56,238 bases of DNA, taken from assembly GCA_009778135.1 (NCBI GenBank), contig WRKJ01000107.1, positions 1 to 56,238 on the forward strand, read 5' to 3'. The DNA is from Defluviitaleaceae bacterium. Its GTDB lineage: Bacteria; Bacillota_I; Bacilli_A; MOL361; Turicibacteraceae. This document shows, in pieces, positions 9,385 through 35,247 of the stretch. A model generated the notes under the pieces. That model saw nothing but the letters and a program-made list of their open reading frames with translations, did no database searches and was not told the origin of the DNA. Position numbers and translations under genes: made by a program. Numbering within the stretch: position 1 is the first letter of the stretch; each line of letters starts with the position of its first letter.

Positions 9385-9417
9385 CCTTTGCAAAAAGGTA
9401 TATAAAAAAAATATATG

Positions 9418-9604
9418 GAGGTCCGAAATATCGTATATGTTAGGGTAGAAAACCCGCTTAATAGCAGGTGGGTATCCCTTCTTGCATATTAGGATTCTTA
9501 CGATACAAAGTAAAGCAAGCATTCAACACAATACAAGATGATCAGATTCCCGAATTCAAAGTGTTCGGATTCAAAGAACTAACAATTGTACGAGTATTTC
9601 AGAC
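9418..9604 (-). ncRNA. ssrS: Probable 6S RNA
   Basis: The stretch has no plausible ORF but has all the parts of a small-RNA gene. A near-consensus promoter lies upstream on the minus strand. The two ends can pair (5' side GAGGGTCTGAAATACTCGTA, 3' side the complement at 9418-9435), and a terminator follows. The pairing ends enclose about 187 nt, the usual 6S length. The interior is weakly paired with two short hairpins, including ACCTGC/GCGGGT near 9456-9473, as expected for the open-promoter-mimicking bubble that binds SigA RNA polymerase. Identification is from architecture, not a covariance search; another structured small RNA is possible. Confidence 0.65.
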
Positions 9605-9610
9605 CCTCTA

Positions 9611-9639: not shown

Positions 9640-9755
9640 CTCTTTTTTGCACTTTTATAAATTTGACATTTTTTTTAGTTGAAATATGGTATGATTAACC
9701 GTGTGCAAAGATATGATTAAAAGCGAAGTCGCACGTGTAATTGGGGGAATGTTCG

Positions 9756-28035: not shown

Positions 28036-29433
28036 TTATTGCTGAGCAGCTACAAAATATTGGAATCTGGCTTGCAGTGTTGGATTTGTAAAGACAACAC
28101 CTGCTTCTTCACGCAAGTTCATTAACAACTCATTCATCACATGTGGCATTTGCATTAACCCTGCAATTTCTTGTTCTTTCAACTCATCACGAATATCTTC
28201 AAATTCAGGAACGTCTTCAGCACCTGTTTTGTAAATAATATGAAATCCAAATTCGGTTTCAACAGGTTCATCTGTAAATTCACCAACTTCTAATGCCACA
28301 ACAGCCTCATCAAATTCGGCAACCATACAGCCCACGCCTGGAACAGAACAAATTTCCCATGAACCTAAGTCACCACCCTCGGCTGCTGATGGACAGATGC
28401 TATACGTATAAGCTAATTCAGCAAATAAAGCTTGGAAATCATTTGCATCTTGCAATTGTTCGATTAACGCTGCCGCAAATTCATAATCTTCTACGAGAAT
28501 ATGACTACCACTAACAGTCGGTCCCAATGCATCATAAATTTCTCTTAACCGTTCGTCAGTTGGTTCAAGTAATGCTTCGATAGATGTCTGTGCAATAATC
28601 TTTTCATCCAGTTCATGAAATGCCATTTCTAATCCTAACTCAGTACTTAACGCATGGAACAATTGACCCATTGTAATATCAACACCATTAACCCGAGCAA
28701 CCACATCTGCTGAAGGTGGCGTTGAAGCGGCGTGCGTTTCAATATCAAGTAAAGCCGTGGCTAAATATTCTTCATATGCAGCTTCAAGGATGTGATTAAA
28801 AATTTCAAGTCCCGCTTCATAACGTAAACGTGCCAACGCTTCAAAGATGACTTCGTTAATGGCTTCTGAAACTAAAAAGTCATAAATTTCTTCACGAAGC
28901 TCATCAAAATCAGCTTCTTCAGGATCAAACCACTCATCAAACATGGCTTGCACCTCTTCATTTGTCACATTGATCAAGTGACGTACTGACGCAAGACGCA
29001 GCTCTTGTAATTCCAAACGATGTAAAACATCTGCTTCCGATTCAAAACCAAATTGGATCATCCAAGATTCAAAGTCAGGGATATCTGCCTTCAATTCTTC
29101 TAAAACGCCTACTGTATTCGCTTCATCCATTTCAATATTACCACGTAACAACACTTCATCAATCAAGTTCATTAAGCCAAATACCGCATTCGGCGTTTCC
29201 AAAATTAAATCGAATAATTCTTGATTCGTCATGTTACCAACATCTGATGTGACAAAATAAGCACCACCATCAAAATCAGCCGTCTCCAATGGTTGCGACT
29301 GACCCAACTCAACCTGCTGCTCACTGGCTGAATCATTACCACTACAACCTGTCAACATTAAAACACCAATTAACACCCCACACATCCCAAGTAAAAACAA
29401 AACTTGAAACAAGGCACTTTTTTTCTTCGTCAT
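28036..29433 (-). CDS. PrsA-like foldase lipoprotein (parvulin-type peptidyl-prolyl isomerase)
   Basis: The 465-residue lipoprotein (lipobox LTGC, Cys30) would assist folding of exported proteins outside the membrane. It has a SurA-like helical chaperone region (about 60-300) and a parvulin domain (about 305-405) beginning VSGSHILVEDYEFA, with GGDLGSW and VETEFGFHIIYKTG. It is longer and more acidic than B. subtilis PrsA. The parvulin loop holds three cysteines (SICPS, WEICSVPGVGCMV) where family members usually have short cysteine-free loops. CAGAGGTGTTTAATC precedes the ATG. A TGTGGCA-type direct repeat upstream links it to the adjacent htrA/two-component locus. Confidence 0.88.
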   Translation of the reverse strand: MTKKKSALFQVLFLLGMCGVLIGVLMLTGCSGNDSASEQQVELGQSQPLETADFDGGAYFVTSDVGNMTNQELFDLILETPNAVFGLMNLIDEVLLRGNIEMDEANTVGVLEELKADIPDFESWMIQFGFESEADVLHRLELQELRLASVRHLINVTNEEVQAMFDEWFDPEEADFDELREEIYDFLVSEAINEVIFEALARLRYEAGLEIFNHILEAAYEEYLATALLDIETHAASTPPSADVVARVNGVDITMGQLFHALSTELGLEMAFHELDEKIIAQTSIEALLEPTDERLREIYDALGPTVSGSHILVEDYEFAAALIEQLQDANDFQALFAELAYTYSICPSAAEGGDLGSWEICSVPGVGCMVAEFDEAVVALEVGEFTDEPVETEFGFHIIYKTGAEDVPEFEDIRDELKEQEIAGLMQMPHVMNELLMNLREEAGVVFTNPTLQARFQYFVAAQQ

Positions 29434-29494: not shown

Positions 29495-29523
29495 ATTGTA
29501 CCACAGGCTTTATCTTTTTACCA
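29495..29523 (-). promoter_or_regulatory. Weak promoter of the foldase gene
   Basis: On the minus strand TACAAT (29495-29500) is preceded at 17 bp by TGGTAA (29518-29523), a poor -35 box. This suggests dependence on an activator bound at the repeat 14 bp further upstream. Confidence 0.5.
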
Positions 29524-29537
29524 CTTTTTTTTAACAT

Positions 29538-29555
29538 TGCCATAAAGTTGCCACA
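29538..29555 (-). promoter_or_regulatory. Direct-repeat operator candidate upstream of the foldase gene
   Basis: On the minus strand TGTGGCAACTTTATGGCA holds two heptamers (TGTGGCA, TATGGCA) 11 bp apart, the spacing used by OmpR-family regulators. The same arrangement is at 30921-30938. Confidence 0.55.
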
Positions 29556-29577
29556 GTTAAACGTTCATTTCTTCAAA

Positions 29578-29637
29578 ATGCGCTTTTAAGCGCATTGATC
29601 CATCTAAATAAGCCCAGTTTAATAAAACCGGGCTTAT
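29578..29637 (-). terminator. Two hairpins downstream of htrA
   Basis: ATAAGCCCAGTTT / AAACCGGGCTTAT (29608-29637) and AATGCGCTT / AAGCGCATT (29578-29597) are strong stems between htrA and the foldase operator. Neither has a long T-run, so termination is likely but not textbook. Confidence 0.5.
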
Positions 29638-29656
29638 CATCCATATTCGTCGTTTT

Positions 29657-30829
29657 TTAAGAGCCCGAATCTGGCAGCACAATGCGGGCTGTTTCATCAA
29701 AAGCAATGCCATTTCTAAGAATGGTAAGGGTAATCTCATCACCATCGCGATAAGTAAATAAAATTTGTCTAAAAGTAGAATTATCTGAAATTTCTACATC
29801 ACCAATATGCGTCAACACATCGCCTGCTTCAATCCCCATGCTACTTGCTAAACTTTCGGGGACAACATCATTAACAAAGACACCTGTTGTCACATCAGCT
29901 GGCAAGTTAATCTCATCACGAATCGATCCTGGTAACATACTTAAATTAACGAGGCTTACACCGAGTAGCGGACGCGTCACTTGACCATAACGCTCTAAAT
30001 CTTCGATAATAGGCAAGGCAATATAAGTCGGGATCGAAAATGACATCCCTTCCACTGCTGATTGCGCGACTTTCATCGAATTAATCCCGACGACTTCTCC
30101 AGCTAAGTTAATCAATGCGCCACCACTATTTCCCGGATTGATCGCTGTATCCGTCTGCAAGACAGTCATGTTCCAATTTTGCATTTGCCCATTGGTCGAT
30201 AAAATTGGAATGGGTACACTGCGGTCATGCCCTGAAACAACACCCATGGTTGCTGAACCGGCAAATTCTAACCCAAGTGGATTCCCGATGGCAATCACGG
30301 TTTGACCCAAGCGTAAATCTTCCGTTCTCCCAAAGGTTGCAACGACATCAGCTTCAAAATTTTCAATTCTAAGCACCGCAATGTCCGTATAAACATCTTG
30401 TCCGACTAAAGTGGCTGGCAGACGTGTTCCTGCAGCATCATTAAAAACAACTTCAATATGAGCCGCACGGTTAATCACATGCTCATTGGTCGCAATATAG
30501 GTGTGTCCATCACGAACCGCATACACAATTCCTGACCCCGTCCCTGCCCGTTGTCCACCAAAGTTCCCAAGAAAACCGCCGTAACCATCAATGGTACTCA
30601 CCACACCGACAATGGCTTCTGCCACTTTATCAATGGCATTCATTTGCGCTTCTTCATGATTGACAACCGAAACAATTTGAGCTGTTTCTTCCGTCAATTG
30701 GGTAACGACCGGAATACTTTCTCCATCCACTGCGACCGAGACGATCTCCAGTTCCAACCAAAAAAGTAAAACAAATAAAGTCCCAACCGTTGTTAAAATC
30801 GAAATCATGATCGTTCCTAAAGTTTTCAT
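29657..30829 (-). CDS. htrA: HtrA/DegP-like serine protease with PDZ domain
   Basis: The 390-residue membrane-anchored protease would degrade misfolded exported proteins. One N-terminal helix (about 7-27) anchors it, with the protease domain outside. The catalytic triad is H117 (TNEHV), D149 (TDIAVLRI) and S235 (GNSGGALI). One PDZ domain spans about 285-380 (LLGVSLVNL, GDVLTHIGDVEISD). ATG 30829 is used, about 11 nt after AGGAG; in-frame codons upstream include ATG 30868, which overlaps the region before that site. It is divergent from a two-component system, as expected for a secretion-stress (CssRS-like) locus. Confidence 0.94.
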   Translation of the reverse strand: MKTLGTIMISILTTVGTLFVLLFWLELEIVSVAVDGESIPVVTQLTEETAQIVSVVNHEEAQMNAIDKVAEAIVGVVSTIDGYGGFLGNFGGQRAGTGSGIVYAVRDGHTYIATNEHVINRAAHIEVVFNDAAGTRLPATLVGQDVYTDIAVLRIENFEADVVATFGRTEDLRLGQTVIAIGNPLGLEFAGSATMGVVSGHDRSVPIPILSTNGQMQNWNMTVLQTDTAINPGNSGGALINLAGEVVGINSMKVAQSAVEGMSFSIPTYIALPIIEDLERYGQVTRPLLGVSLVNLSMLPGSIRDEINLPADVTTGVFVNDVVPESLASSMGIEAGDVLTHIGDVEISDNSTFRQILFTYRDGDEITLTILRNGIAFDETARIVLPDSGS

Positions 30830-30882
30830 TTTTTCATTCACTCCTGACATTCTTTTATTTAGCATCATTCAAAACCAACTAA

Positions 30883-30911
30883 ATTATACCTCTTATATTC
30901 ACGAAAAGTTA
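30883..30911 (-). promoter_or_regulatory. Promoter of htrA
   Basis: On the minus strand TATAAT (30883-30888) is preceded at 17 bp by the weak TAACTT (30906-30911). The regulator repeat at 30921-30938 begins 9 bp upstream of the -35 position. Confidence 0.6.
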
Positions 30912-30920
30912 CCGAAAAAC

Positions 30921-30938
30921 TGTGGCAGGATTGTGGCA
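30921..30938 (+). promoter_or_regulatory. Direct-repeat operator candidate between htrA and the two-component system
   Basis: TGTGGCAGGATTGTGGCA contains two perfect TGTGGCA heptamers 11 bp apart. It lies 38 bp before the -10 box of the two-component operon, against 37 bp for the similar repeat at the foldase gene, in the same orientation. Confidence 0.6.
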
Positions 30939-30953
30939 ACATCCTCTTTTTCA

Positions 30954-30982
30954 TTTAAAGTCATCTAACGACATGATATAAT
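30954..30982 (+). promoter_or_regulatory. Promoter of the first two-component system
   Basis: TATAAT (30977-30982) has a weak -35 TTTAAA (30954-30959) at 17 bp. Confidence 0.6.
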
Positions 30983-31124
30983 TTAAAAGCGAAGTCGAGT
31001 GTGGGAACTTCCGATGAAATCTTGAAGCCGACTTTTGGTACGAAGTGACAACAGTACAGGCAAAAGATTATCAAGGAAGTTACGAGACGTAGCTAGATAT
31101 CATTTAAAAGCGAAGTCGAGTGTG
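30983..31124 (+). repeat. Duplicated leader element with intervening hairpin
   Basis: TTAAAAGCGAAGTCG plus AGTGTG occurs at 30983-31003 and again at 31104-31124, each directly after a -10-like box (TATAAT, TATCAT). Between them CTTTTGGTAC and GTAC-AGG-CAAAAG (31032-31066) can form a bulged hairpin. Copies of the core also occur at 9716 and, divergently, at 10353. Confidence 0.6.
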
Positions 31125-31154
31125 TAAACCCCGACAAGCAAAAGGAGACTGAAG

Positions 31155-31865
31155 ATGGGAGATAAAACCATTTATATTGCAGAAGATGAAAAAAACATTC
31201 GGAACCTCATTGCATCCTTTTTAAAAAAGGAAGGGTATCAAGTCTTAGCTTTTGAAACAGGAGATGACTTATACGACACATTTCAAATACAACCTGCTGA
31301 CTTGGTTATTCTTGACGTCATGATGCCAGGCGCTAGTGGGTTTATCATTTGTAGCAAGCTTCGTGACATGTCAACTGTCCCCATCATCATGCTAACTGCT
31401 AAAGATACAGATGAAGATTACATTTCTGGCATTGCTTTAGGAAGTGATGCCTACTTCACGAAGCCTTTCAGTCCTGTCAAACTGGTTATGCAAGTCAAAG
31501 CCATGTTACGACGTGCTGAGATGGATGCAGCCGCCACGAACATCAAAAGTACCACTGATGACTGCCTTGTATTTTCTGATATCACCATCCAACCAGAAAA
31601 ATTCATGGTTTTTTGCGACAAAGAAGAGCTTAAACTCACGCACACAGAGTTTTGTTTACTCACCTTTTTAGTCGAAAACAAAGAACGTGCTGTTTCAAGA
31701 GAAGAGCTACTACTTAAAATATGGGGGTACGACGCTGCCATTGAAACACGGGCAACAGACGATACGGTTAAACGATTGCGGCGAAAACTCGCTGATATGA
31801 ACAGTCTCATGCAAATCGAAACTGTTCGTGGATATGGCTTTAAACTCGGGACAAAGGAAGCATGA
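31155..31865 (+). CDS. OmpR/PhoB-family response regulator 1
   Basis: The 236-residue regulator has a receiver domain (phosphoacceptor D54 in VILDVMMPG, K103 in FTKPFSP) and a C-terminal winged helix (about 140-235, ending ETVRGYGFKLG). It is co-transcribed with the kinase that starts 4 bp later. Its position opposite htrA suggests control of envelope protein quality, like CssR of B. subtilis; this is inference. AAAGGAGACTGAAG precedes the ATG. It is very similar to the regulator at 34540-35247, and the stretch TRATDDTVKRLRRKL is almost the same in both. Confidence 0.95.
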   Translation: MGDKTIYIAEDEKNIRNLIASFLKKEGYQVLAFETGDDLYDTFQIQPADLVILDVMMPGASGFIICSKLRDMSTVPIIMLTAKDTDEDYISGIALGSDAYFTKPFSPVKLVMQVKAMLRRAEMDAAATNIKSTTDDCLVFSDITIQPEKFMVFCDKEELKLTHTEFCLLTFLVENKERAVSREELLLKIWGYDAAIETRATDDTVKRLRRKLADMNSLMQIETVRGYGFKLGTKEA

Positions 31866-31869
31866 TCCA

Positions 31870-33312
31870 ATGAAAAAAAGCTTTGCAAATCGACTGATGT
31901 TGAACTTTACTTGTGTGGTTTTTGTCGGTTTTTTAATGATTTACTTCTTATTTAACGTTCTCATTGACAACCACATCAGAGCAGAAGCAGAAGCAGCGCT
32001 CAGTCACGAATTCACCATCGTTAACGAAACTGAATTGATCCCAACACTCCCATTTTTCCCCTTCAATGACACCCTTAACTTTCAAATTGGGCTCAATCGG
32101 CTTCAATCGAGTCGTTCCATTGTCAATGTCCATACCATTGTGATTGATCAAAACGATGTTATTTTATACCCAGACCCCCAACATTTATCACCCATAGAAA
32201 TTGACAGGATCAAAGCATTGGCCACATTTTGGAATGAGCATCAATCTTTATTTGAAGCCAGCGAAGACATGATCATGACTGCCCACGAAGGACATACTTT
32301 TTATATGCGGGCAACGTCTCATTATTTGATCCATAGACATGTCTTCTTTTTTGAATCAACCCCTGTTTCTGTTTTAATATACACCGACATTACCCCAGCC
32401 ATGAATTTAAAAAACAGTATGAATCACGTACTGCTTGCTTTACTTGCCATTCTGGGCACCTTAACTTTAGGCATTTCATTTTTACTGTCTACCCGATTCA
32501 AACAAGCCATTAAACGTTTGTCCGTTCATGCACAAACCATTGGACAAGGTCACTTTGATCAAAAAATAAAACGACTACGCTACTTAGAATTTGAACAGCT
32601 TGGAAACAGCATGAATACCATGGCAGACATGTTAAATACTTATGAAACGAATCAAAAACAATTTTTTCAAAATGCTTCTCATGAACTTCGCACCCCGTTA
32701 ATGTCTATTCAAGGTTATGCTGAAGGGATCCAATTAGGTGTCTTCGAAAACGACGAAGCCACTGATGTCATTCTTGAAGAAAGTCATAAAATGACAGAAC
32801 TAATCAACGACATTTTATATTTGTCAAAACTCAACACAGCAGAAGATTTCCAGATGGCATTTCGCACCATCACAGTAGATGCTTTGATGAAACGTTGTAT
32901 CAAACGCGTTAACATTCTCGCTGAAAAAGAAAATAAACAATTGTTTCTCGACACATCGTTAGAAATCGATTTCGAAACTGACGCAGACAAACTTGAACGC
33001 GCCATCATTAACATTTTATCCAATGCCATCCGTTACGCACAAGCAGAAATTCGACTAAATTGCAAAGCGGAAGCAGATTTCTTATGTATGACCATTTTTA
33101 ACGATGGACCTGCCATTGATGAAAAAGACCTTCCTTACCTCTTCGACCGCTTTTACAAAGGACGTAGCGGGAATACAGGGTTAGGTCTTGCGATCACAAA
33201 AGATATTATCATTGGCTTAGGTGGACAAATTGAAGCGAAAAATTTAGAAAAAGGTGTTGTCTTTAAGCTTCAGTTACCACTTAAACAAAGCCTTAACGAC
33301 CGCCTAAAGTAA
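31870..33312 (+). CDS. Sensor histidine kinase 1
   Basis: The 480-residue kinase has two membrane helices (about 12-32 and 190-212) around an extracellular sensor domain of about 155 residues, then a HAMP-like linker. A HisKA motif FFQNASHELRTP (H271) and an HATPase_c domain follow, with NILSNAIRYA (N-box), FYKG and GLGLAITKDI. It is transcribed with the regulator at 31155-31865. ATG 31870 after AAGGAAGCATGATCCA is the start; in-frame codons upstream lie inside the regulator gene. The signal is unknown; misfolded secreted protein is a reasonable guess from the htrA context. Confidence 0.93.
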   Translation: MKKSFANRLMLNFTCVVFVGFLMIYFLFNVLIDNHIRAEAEAALSHEFTIVNETELIPTLPFFPFNDTLNFQIGLNRLQSSRSIVNVHTIVIDQNDVILYPDPQHLSPIEIDRIKALATFWNEHQSLFEASEDMIMTAHEGHTFYMRATSHYLIHRHVFFFESTPVSVLIYTDITPAMNLKNSMNHVLLALLAILGTLTLGISFLLSTRFKQAIKRLSVHAQTIGQGHFDQKIKRLRYLEFEQLGNSMNTMADMLNTYETNQKQFFQNASHELRTPLMSIQGYAEGIQLGVFENDEATDVILEESHKMTELINDILYLSKLNTAEDFQMAFRTITVDALMKRCIKRVNILAEKENKQLFLDTSLEIDFETDADKLERAIINILSNAIRYAQAEIRLNCKAEADFLCMTIFNDGPAIDEKDLPYLFDRFYKGRSGNTGLGLAITKDIIIGLGGQIEAKNLEKGVVFKLQLPLKQSLNDRLK

Positions 33313-33375
33313 GCTTAAACTTTTGTGTTGTCTAAAACATCAGTAACGAATTAACATCGAATGGAGGAATTACAA

Positions 33376-34074
33376 ATGCTTATGAACAATATTGAGTACT
33401 TTTCAATTCTGGAAAATGTCAAAACCCAAATGACATCAGCACAAAATAAAGCCGTCATGGGTGTCAATCGTGAACAAATCATTCTCTACTGGGAACTTGG
33501 AAAAATTATTATTAATAATTCTGAATGGGGAAATAAGTTTATTGACAACCTTGCAAGAGATATAAAACTTGAATTTCCTAATGTGAAAGGTTATTCTGTA
33601 AGAAATTTAAAATACATGAGAAGATTTTCGGATTTTATACCGAGTTTGGAAATTGTGCAGACAGTGTCTGCACAATTTAGTTGGTCACACAATACACTCT
33701 TAATTGACAAATGTAAATCACTTGGTGAATATTTGTGGTATGCTGATAAAATCATTGAAGATGCTTTATCTTTGTCAGGCTTGCAAAATAGAATTGAGCT
33801 TAAAAATTACGAACGACAAGCAAACGATGAAAAAGCAACGAACTATGAAAAATTACTATCTAAAAATCAAGGGAAGTTAGTTCAAGAAACGTTAAAAAGT
33901 CCTTACGTTTTTGATTTTATAGAAAAACATGATGATATTATAGAACGTGAAATAGAACAAGGCCTTATTGCAAATATCGCCAAAACTTTGCTTGAATTAG
34001 GAACTGGATTTGCATTTATTGGAAACCAGTACCGATTGACGGTTGGCAACATTTTCCTAATTCAGAATGGTTAG
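33376..34074 (+). pseudogene. DUF1016 (YhcG-type) nuclease gene, 3' truncated
   Basis: The frame encodes 232 residues. It has the DUF1016 N-terminal domain (AVMGVNREQIILYWELGKII, YSVRNLKYMRRF, VQTVSAQFSWSHNTLL) and the start of the PDDEXK nuclease domain (KSPYVFDFI, GFAFIGNQYRLTVG). Full-length relatives continue for about 100 residues with the catalytic D-(I/L)-LFYH and ELK motifs. These are missing here, because the frame ends in LTVGNIFLIQNG. The catalytic centre is therefore lost. It sits between two paralogous two-component systems and has a more AT-rich, Asn/Lys/Ile-heavy composition than its neighbours, suggesting transfer followed by decay. ATG 33376 follows GGAGGAATTACAA. Confidence 0.8.
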
Positions 34075-34196
34075 TTCAAACCACTCAAGAAATATACCCT
34101 TATTATGAGAAGCTTGGTTTCGAAGTTAAAAATGATGTGTTCTTAACAATACCATCTAAGTGGATACCATCACCTTATTATGGTACAATAGCATGA
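34032..34196 (+). pseudogene. C-terminal remnant of another protein fused to the truncated DUF1016 gene
   Basis: In a different frame from the DUF1016 gene, positions 34032-34196 read PIDGWQHFPNSEWLVQTTQE and on through YYEKLGFEVKNDVFLTIPSK to a stop. The YYEKLGF segment resembles the C-terminal end of GNAT acetyltransferases. No start or ribosome binding site exists for it, so it looks like the tail of a gene joined by a deletion. Confidence 0.45.
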
Positions 34197-34440
34197 CAAC
34201 AAACTTCTTTTGACGTTAGTCCAAAATGAGAATTAATTTAAAACTGCACCAATTCATATGCAGATTATCGCATATGTAACGTACAGTTTTTATCATATTA
34301 AAAGATTTTAAAGCTCACACACTGGAAAAGTTGCGCTCATACGCCTTAGTTACTCGTATAAGACCTAAAAATAATAAACCAATGAGCTAACAGAAACTGT
34401 TTAATTTTTTACCTCATTATGGTACAATAGCATGACAACA
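34172..34440 (+). repeat. 30-bp direct repeat flanking a non-coding segment
   Basis: ACCT-ATTATGGTACAATAG with CATGACAACA occurs at 34172-34201 and 34411-34440 with one mismatch, 239 bp apart. The first copy overlaps the stop of the remnant at 34032-34196; the second lies upstream of response regulator 2 and could carry its -10 box (TACAAT). Between them lies non-coding DNA with a nested hairpin (34240-34291). Confidence 0.75.
34240..34291 (+). terminator. Nested hairpin, possible terminator
   Basis: AAAACTG / CAGTTTT (outer) and CATATGC / GCATATG (inner) pair, and a T-run follows. It may end transcription from the pseudogene region. Confidence 0.4.
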
Positions 34441-34539
34441 GATGACAACTTTTTTACTTTGGTTATCGTCTTATTATGTCATGCTTTTATGTAGGTAACG
34501 AAAGATTAAAAGTAAAGTCAAAGGATTGGAGGTCAAACA

Positions 34540-35247
34540 ATGAGCAAGTTGATTTATCTTGCAGAAGATGAAGCAAATATTAGAATTCCACTTAAAGCTT
34601 TTTTAGAAAAAGAAGCCTACAGCGTCGTCGCATTTGAAAATGGCGATTTACTTTTTGAAGCCTTTCAACAAAACGTACCCGATTTGGTCATCTTAGATGT
34701 GATGATGCCGGGAAGTAACGGTTTCATCATCTGTACCAAAATTCGTGCCCTTTCAACGATTCCCATCATTATGCTCACAGCAAGGGGATCAGATGAAGAT
34801 TATACCACAGGCATTTCTTTAGGCAGCGATGACTACTTAACCAAGCCATTTAGTCCCATTAAATTGGTGATGCGCGTCAAAGCATTATTCAGACGCCTTG
34901 AAATGACTTCGACCACAACAAAAAAGACTGAGATGCCTGATAAAATTGAATATGGTGATCTTTCCATTGACCCTGATAGTTTGCTCAGCTTATGCAAAGG
35001 TATTGAATTCAAATTAACGAATACTGAATTAAAATTTTTAATCCATTTGATGCAACACAAAGATAAAGCCATTTCACGTGATGAACTACTCTCAAAAATT
35101 TGGGAGCACGATTATGCCATTGAAACAAGGGTAACTGACGACACTGTCAAACGATTGCGAAAAAAACTCATCGACGCCAAAAGCGATGTCCGCATTGAAA
35201 CCATATGGGGATTTGGCTTTAGAATTGGTACGAAAAATGAAGGATAA
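34540..35247 (+). CDS. OmpR/PhoB-family response regulator 2
   Basis: The 235-residue regulator has receiver residues D53 (VILDVMMPG) and K102 (LTKPFSP), and a winged-helix domain ending ETIWGFGFRIG. It is a clear paralogue of the regulator at 31155-31865. The recognition-helix region (TRVTDDTVKRLRKKL) differs little from that of regulator 1, so the two may bind similar sites. GATTGGAGGTCAAACA precedes the ATG. The kinase gene overlaps its 3' end by 11 bp. Confidence 0.95.
   Translation: MSKLIYLAEDEANIRIPLKAFLEKEAYSVVAFENGDLLFEAFQQNVPDLVILDVMMPGSNGFIICTKIRALSTIPIIMLTARGSDEDYTTGISLGSDDYLTKPFSPIKLVMRVKALFRRLEMTSTTTKKTEMPDKIEYGDLSIDPDSLLSLCKGIEFKLTNTELKFLIHLMQHKDKAISRDELLSKIWEHDYAIETRVTDDTVKRLRKKLIDAKSDVRIETIWGFGFRIGTKNEG

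Follow-up and report, generated by a model that had tools for sequence, protein, structure and literature searches.

A pair of TGCCACA half-sites, repeated head-to-tail at 11 bp, lies in the promoter regions of an htrA-type protease gene, the divergent two-component operon, a PrsA-like foldase gene and two FtsX-type ABC permease genes of a Turicibacteraceae bacterium, and between htrA and the regulator gene it is conserved together with the regulator in a relative. Reading from sequence, we propose with a probability of about 0.7 that the first response regulator of the locus (RR1), phosphorylated by the sensor kinase HK1, binds these pairs head-to-tail and activates htrA, the RR1-HK1 operon, the PrsA-like foldase and both permease operons. 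HK1 would sense trouble outside the membrane and phosphorylate RR1; an RR1 dimer would then occupy the two 7-bp half-sites, 11 bp apart on one face of the helix, and recruit RNA polymerase to promoters that have an extended -10, a weak -35, or both. One site (box A) would serve both divergent promoters, that of htrA, toward which the half-sites read, and that of RR1-HK1, whose activation would amount to positive feedback. A second site (box B) would serve the foldase, and two boxes on another contig the permease operons. Protease, foldase and transporters raised together would form an envelope or secretion-stress circuit. That RR1 is the binder, that control is positive and that secretion stress is the probable signal are our inferences.

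The locus lies in the window, the whole stretch of 56,238 nucleotides that was analysed (see Table). Pfam profiles bear out the gene identities that the earlier note had guessed: a PPIC-domain lipoprotein, an HtrA protease, an OmpR/PhoB-type regulator and a HAMP-containing kinase. RR1 combines a receiver domain (PF00072, 1.6e-25) with a winged-helix Trans_reg_C domain (PF00486, 1e-20), which places it in the OmpR/PhoB type. The PrsA-like protein stays below the cut-offs of the NCBIfam PrsA models, and the protease matches the NCBIfam HtrA models, again below their cut-offs. Between the two two-component systems of the window lies a gene for a DUF1016/YhcG-type nuclease (33361-34074), possibly truncated, with 56 of the 157 positions of the C-terminal domain matched.

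Table. Genes, boxes and promoter elements of the locus (positions in the window)
Feature	Position	Strand	Description
PrsA-like lipoprotein foldase	28036-29433	minus	PPIC domain (Pfam PF00639, 6e-13); LTGC lipobox
PrsA-like gene, extended -10	29495-29500	minus	TGG-TACAAT; 37 bp from box B
Box B	29538-29555	minus	TGTGGCA-ACTT-TATGGCA = TGTGGCAACTTTATGGCA; upstream of the PrsA-like gene; one mismatch
HtrA serine protease	29657-30829	minus	Trypsin and PDZ domains (Pfam PF13365, PF13180); ORF open to 30868
htrA -10	30883-30888	minus	TATAAT; 32 bp from box A
Two weak units in the 11-bp register	30899-30916	minus	TTCGGTA, TTCGTGA; extend box A toward htrA
Box A	30921-30938		TGTGGCA-GGAT-TGTGGCA = TGTGGCAGGATTGTGGCA; minus strand TGCCACA-N4-TGCCACA; common to htrA and the regulator operon
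Regulator operon, extended -10	30977-30982	plus	TGA-TATAAT; 38 bp from the end of box A; -35 TTTAAA (4/6)
RR1, OmpR/PhoB-type response regulator	31155-31865	plus	Pfam PF00072 and PF00486; proposed box binder
HK1, membrane sensor kinase	31870-33312	plus	HAMP, HisKA, HATPase (Pfam)
RR2, paralog of RR1	34540-35247	plus	57% identity with RR1; probably not the main binder

Both heptamer pairs reported in the earlier note are present at its coordinates, and its distances from them to the -10 boxes of the two-component operon and the foldase gene proved correct on measurement. It had also placed box A 9 bp upstream of a weak htrA -35, which is accurate (TAACTT, a poor -35). Its statement that the promoters of the two-component operon and the foldase both have poor -35 boxes holds for the foldase (TGGTAA) but goes too far for the regulator operon, whose -35 is fair. 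The weak units that extend box A stop 10 bp before the htrA -10, and they may be further bound units.

The htrA/regulator box can be followed in a second member of the family, a termite-gut MAG labelled Turicibacter (G002, locus L090). Its regulator shares 71-72% and its HtrA 69% identity with the counterparts in the window, and the two genes are divergent in the same order. The earlier note would have given up its hypothesis had the repeats been lost in a close relative keeping this gene order. Instead the G002 spacer carries an exact box (TGTGGCAAGATTGTGGCA), with both distances unchanged: 38 bp separate it from the regulator -10 and 32 bp from the htrA -10. Elsewhere the two spacers mostly differ; a conserved block of about 40 bp takes in the box and runs on toward htrA through the weak units. 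In the register of the weak units of the window, G002 has TTCGGAA and TGCGTGG. In 20,000 shuffled versions of the G002 htrA-regulator spacer an exact box never arose. Because this best-conserved geometry, the 32 bp and the further weak units, points toward htrA, htrA looks like the prime target.

Genomes in which the regulator is distant or was not found gave no promoter-placed box. Five genomes of genus g3 have no close RR1 ortholog (best 42-44% identity), and in G001, which is only 75% complete, we found neither RR1 nor htrA. Almost all box matches inspected in these six genomes lie in ORFs and none is placed at a promoter as the htrA box is; the g3 htrA genes and the prsA genes that we checked have no box.

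The genome to which the window belongs, a draft assembly of 109 contigs, was searched by pattern. With up to one mismatch, intergenic copies of the box occur only at htrA/RR1, at the PrsA-like gene and at two permease promoters. The scan that the earlier note had suggested adds two candidate targets to its set. The other PrsA-type genes checked in this genome have no box, and none was found at the foldase gene or the other two htrA genes of G002. Boxes at these promoters define the predicted set: htrA, the regulator operon, the PrsA-like gene and two permease operons. Both permease genes lie on contig C85, encode paralogous FtsX-type ABC permeases and carry TGCCACA pairs 31 and 32 bp before a TATAAT, oriented as at htrA; being paralogous, the two promoters are not independent evidence. 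Up to five 11-bp units stand in a row before the first gene, behind which lie genes for an ABC ATPase and a PASTA protein.

We considered a wider regulon across other FtsX-type permease copies and discarded it: the upstream regions covered, those of the majority of copies in G000, G001 and G002, yielded only the two boxes on C85, and the other copies examined in the own genome have none. Next best is a site in G001 (TGTCACT-N4-TGTCACA, three mismatches), beside a different regulator. The FtsX-type family is strongly expanded in these three genomes, with 23-29 matches each vs 0-2 in genus g3, and on contig C214 of G002 a permease gene closely precedes an htrA paralog.

It is possible, though we doubt it, that the circuit consists of htrA and RR1-HK1 (with or without the permeases) and that box B, a near-match, arose by chance or goes unused. 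It differs from the exact box at one position, and no relative provides this PrsA-like gene with an orthologous promoter for a test of conservation. The lack of a box at other PrsA-type genes points the same way, as do four further copies with at most one mismatch in the own genome, all within genes. Against this, when the prsA-htrA spacer was dinucleotide-shuffled 20,000 times, a box with at most one mismatch arose only 4 times, which makes chance occurrence unlikely. Furthermore, the spacing and orientation of box B match those of box A relative to the RR1 operon (37 vs 38 bp), an extended -10 is again present, and PrsA foldases are also controlled by PieRS in Listeria (PMC12234432). We see the circuit of the earlier note as supported in part, its interpretation being largely borne out and extended: the OmpR/PhoB-type box it assigned to the first regulator is kept in G002 at htrA and RR1, and the foldase site is statistically unlikely to be a chance match.

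The arrangement of the sites bears on how they would work. Box A has opposite orientations toward htrA and toward the regulator operon; more generally, the boxes run in one direction relative to htrA and the permeases and in the other relative to RR1 and the PrsA-like gene. The spacings from box to -10 form three classes, 31-32, 37-38 and 26 bp, the last in the more distant loci described below. Because of these two directions and three classes, a single mechanism may not fit all sites. A head-to-tail dimer would present different faces to the two divergent promoters, which is the least comfortable part of the model.

One could instead suppose that the box serves repression or autorepression, with bound RR1 shutting the divergent promoters until the signal changes its state. 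The array of the first permease overlaps the -35 region, and activation is not strictly needed at the RR1 operon because that promoter has a fair -35 of its own. However, sites that end 31-38 bp upstream of a -10 lie outside the core contacts of RNA polymerase, and such positions, before promoters with mostly poor -35 boxes and an extended -10, would fit activation. We consider repression unlikely. By analogy with PhoP of M. tuberculosis (see below), putative RR1 dimers on boxes A and B may bring polymerase to weak promoters.

RR1 is the economical choice as the putative binder, and we regard it as improbable that the box is bound mainly by RR2 or another PhoB-like regulator, with RR1 a mere neighbour. 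RR2 does share 57% identity with RR1 and a nearly identical recognition helix (RVTDDTVKRLRKKL vs RATDDTVKRLRRKL), so that cross-binding by RR2 is plausible, and the RR1 search gave nine matches in the own genome. Yet the RR2 promoter has no box at up to four mismatches, and G002 keeps the exact box beside its RR1 ortholog while a close RR2 homolog was not found there (next-best match 41%). Upstream of RR2 a promoter-like stretch around ATTATGGTACAATAGCATGACAACA is duplicated (34177-34200 and 34415-34450), the second copy being followed by a TGACAAC repeat with 10-bp spacing.

RR1 orthologs elsewhere also carry 11-bp repeats at their own promoters, which again argues for RR1 over RR2. Five Defluviitaleaceae MAG loci (L091-L094 and L097) encode regulators about 62-66% identical to RR1, and in all five such a repeat lies exactly 26 bp before the extended -10 of the regulator gene. 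It reads TGSNACA-AAAT-TGSRACA in four of them and, more loosely, TGTAACA-AAAT-TGAGGCA in L092. The best 7-mer self-match, taken over 11 promoters, is highest at lag 11 (6.18, vs a maximum of 5.27 in 2000 shuffles), and lag 22 gives a second peak. The recognition helix has TDDT in both Turicibacteraceae orthologs and in L095, where the half-site is TGCCGCA and the regulator gene is divergent to an FtsX-type permease gene. It has TDAT or TDAA in the Defluviitaleaceae loci with the shifted half-site. In L091, L092, L094 and L097 the regulator gene is divergent from an operon for transport permeases and two large proteins, one lipoprotein-like with a weak solute-binding match and the other of envelope type.

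We tentatively suggest that these regulators could be a previously undescribed envelope-stress two-component subfamily of termite-gut Firmicutes (Turicibacteraceae and Defluviitaleaceae MAGs). Its predicted box may have drifted from TGCCACA to TGSRACA together with the D-to-A change in the helix. One lineage may have put it to use again at htrA, foldase and FtsX permeases, another at ABC-transporter operons.

What sets the N4 box apart is its placement and not its frequency in the genome. With up to two mismatches the own genome has 30 matches with the N4 spacer vs 52 with N5. We dropped these counts as support for the box, N5-spaced controls being as frequent; raw counts are uninformative because coding sequence supplies most matches. 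Seven of the 30 N4 matches are intergenic, both exact ones among them, and four promoter regions account for six of these seven. By contrast, every one of the 20 N5 matches inspected, including all nine with one mismatch, is in an ORF. That chance alone put 11-bp-spaced matches into AT-rich spacers is therefore highly improbable: N4 counts no higher than N5 would agree with it, but the intergenic and promoter placement, the shuffles and the exact box of G002, with its two unchanged distances, contradict it.

Separate from the box, the leader between the regulator -10 and the start codon holds a two-unit repeat with 121-bp spacing (30975-31129). This repeat is dispersed, about 120 bp long and often tandem, with a further copy in the window (9719-9737) and others on contigs C2, C29, C36, C54, C97 and C98 of the same genome. 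It starts with AAAAGCGAAGTCGAGTGTG, in several copies directly after a TATAATT-like -10, and several copies lie at contig ends. The fold signal is mild (z -2.35), neither the leader nor the repeat copies gave a convincing Rfam match, and the repeat was not found in the eight relatives searched. The single copy adjoins a 6S RNA gene (RF00013, 65.6 bits; 9416-9608, minus strand).

Several known systems share features with the proposed circuit. In streptococci the OmpR-type regulator CiaR of CiaRH activates htrA among other targets through TTTAAG-N5-TTTAAG upstream of the -10 (PMC3091779), likewise a direct repeat with 11-bp spacing. The half-site and the recognition helix of CiaR (VVEVYVSKVRKKL) differ from those of RR1, however, and its repeats lie 10 bp before the -10, in contrast to 31-38 bp for the boxes of the window and of C85. 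A CiaR-type site is absent from the two spacers at up to two mismatches. The 7+4 head-to-tail layout is that of PhoB/PhoP-type regulators: PhoP of M. tuberculosis recognizes 7-bp motifs with a 4-bp spacer as tandem dimers, and three or four units raise its affinity (PMC4832192). The half-site is different (TGCCACA here vs TCACAGC), and we found no M. tuberculosis PhoP site in the spacers.

CssRS of B. subtilis, as presented in part of a review, responds to misfolded exported proteins and raises htrA paralogs (PMC12826053), and the title of a paper cited there calls it autoregulated. The regulator gene lies beside an htrA-type gene, as it does, divergently, in the window and in G002; unlike here, PrsA and permeases are not described among the CssRS targets in that part of the review. 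No CssR model was among the profile matches listed for the libraries searched.

The closest likeness is to PieRS of Listeria monocytogenes, which controls the foldases PrsA1 and PrsA2 together with an ABC ATPase/permease pair (PMC12234432), with evidence for regulation of HtrA too, according to the same review (PMC12826053). A PrsA-type foldase in such a regulon therefore has precedent, and foldase, ABC transporter and HtrA are nearly the combination predicted here, where boxes stand at the promoters of all three kinds of target. Differences are that htrA is here divergent from the regulator gene and that RR1 is classed as neither PieR nor PhoB, scoring 157 bits vs the equivalog cut-off of 450 of NCBIfam NF041209 and 191 bits vs 296 for TIGR02154. 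In the literature we found no published PieR box for comparison. The box is thus new and the kind of circuit already known, since PieRS is reported with nearly the same genes, and the known workings of such circuits are unchanged by our finding. If correct, it provides a concrete predicted DNA box for an uncultured lineage and an envelope quality-control regulon predicted from the genome alone, and would add, beside PieRS, a case of joint control of protease, foldase and ABC permease.
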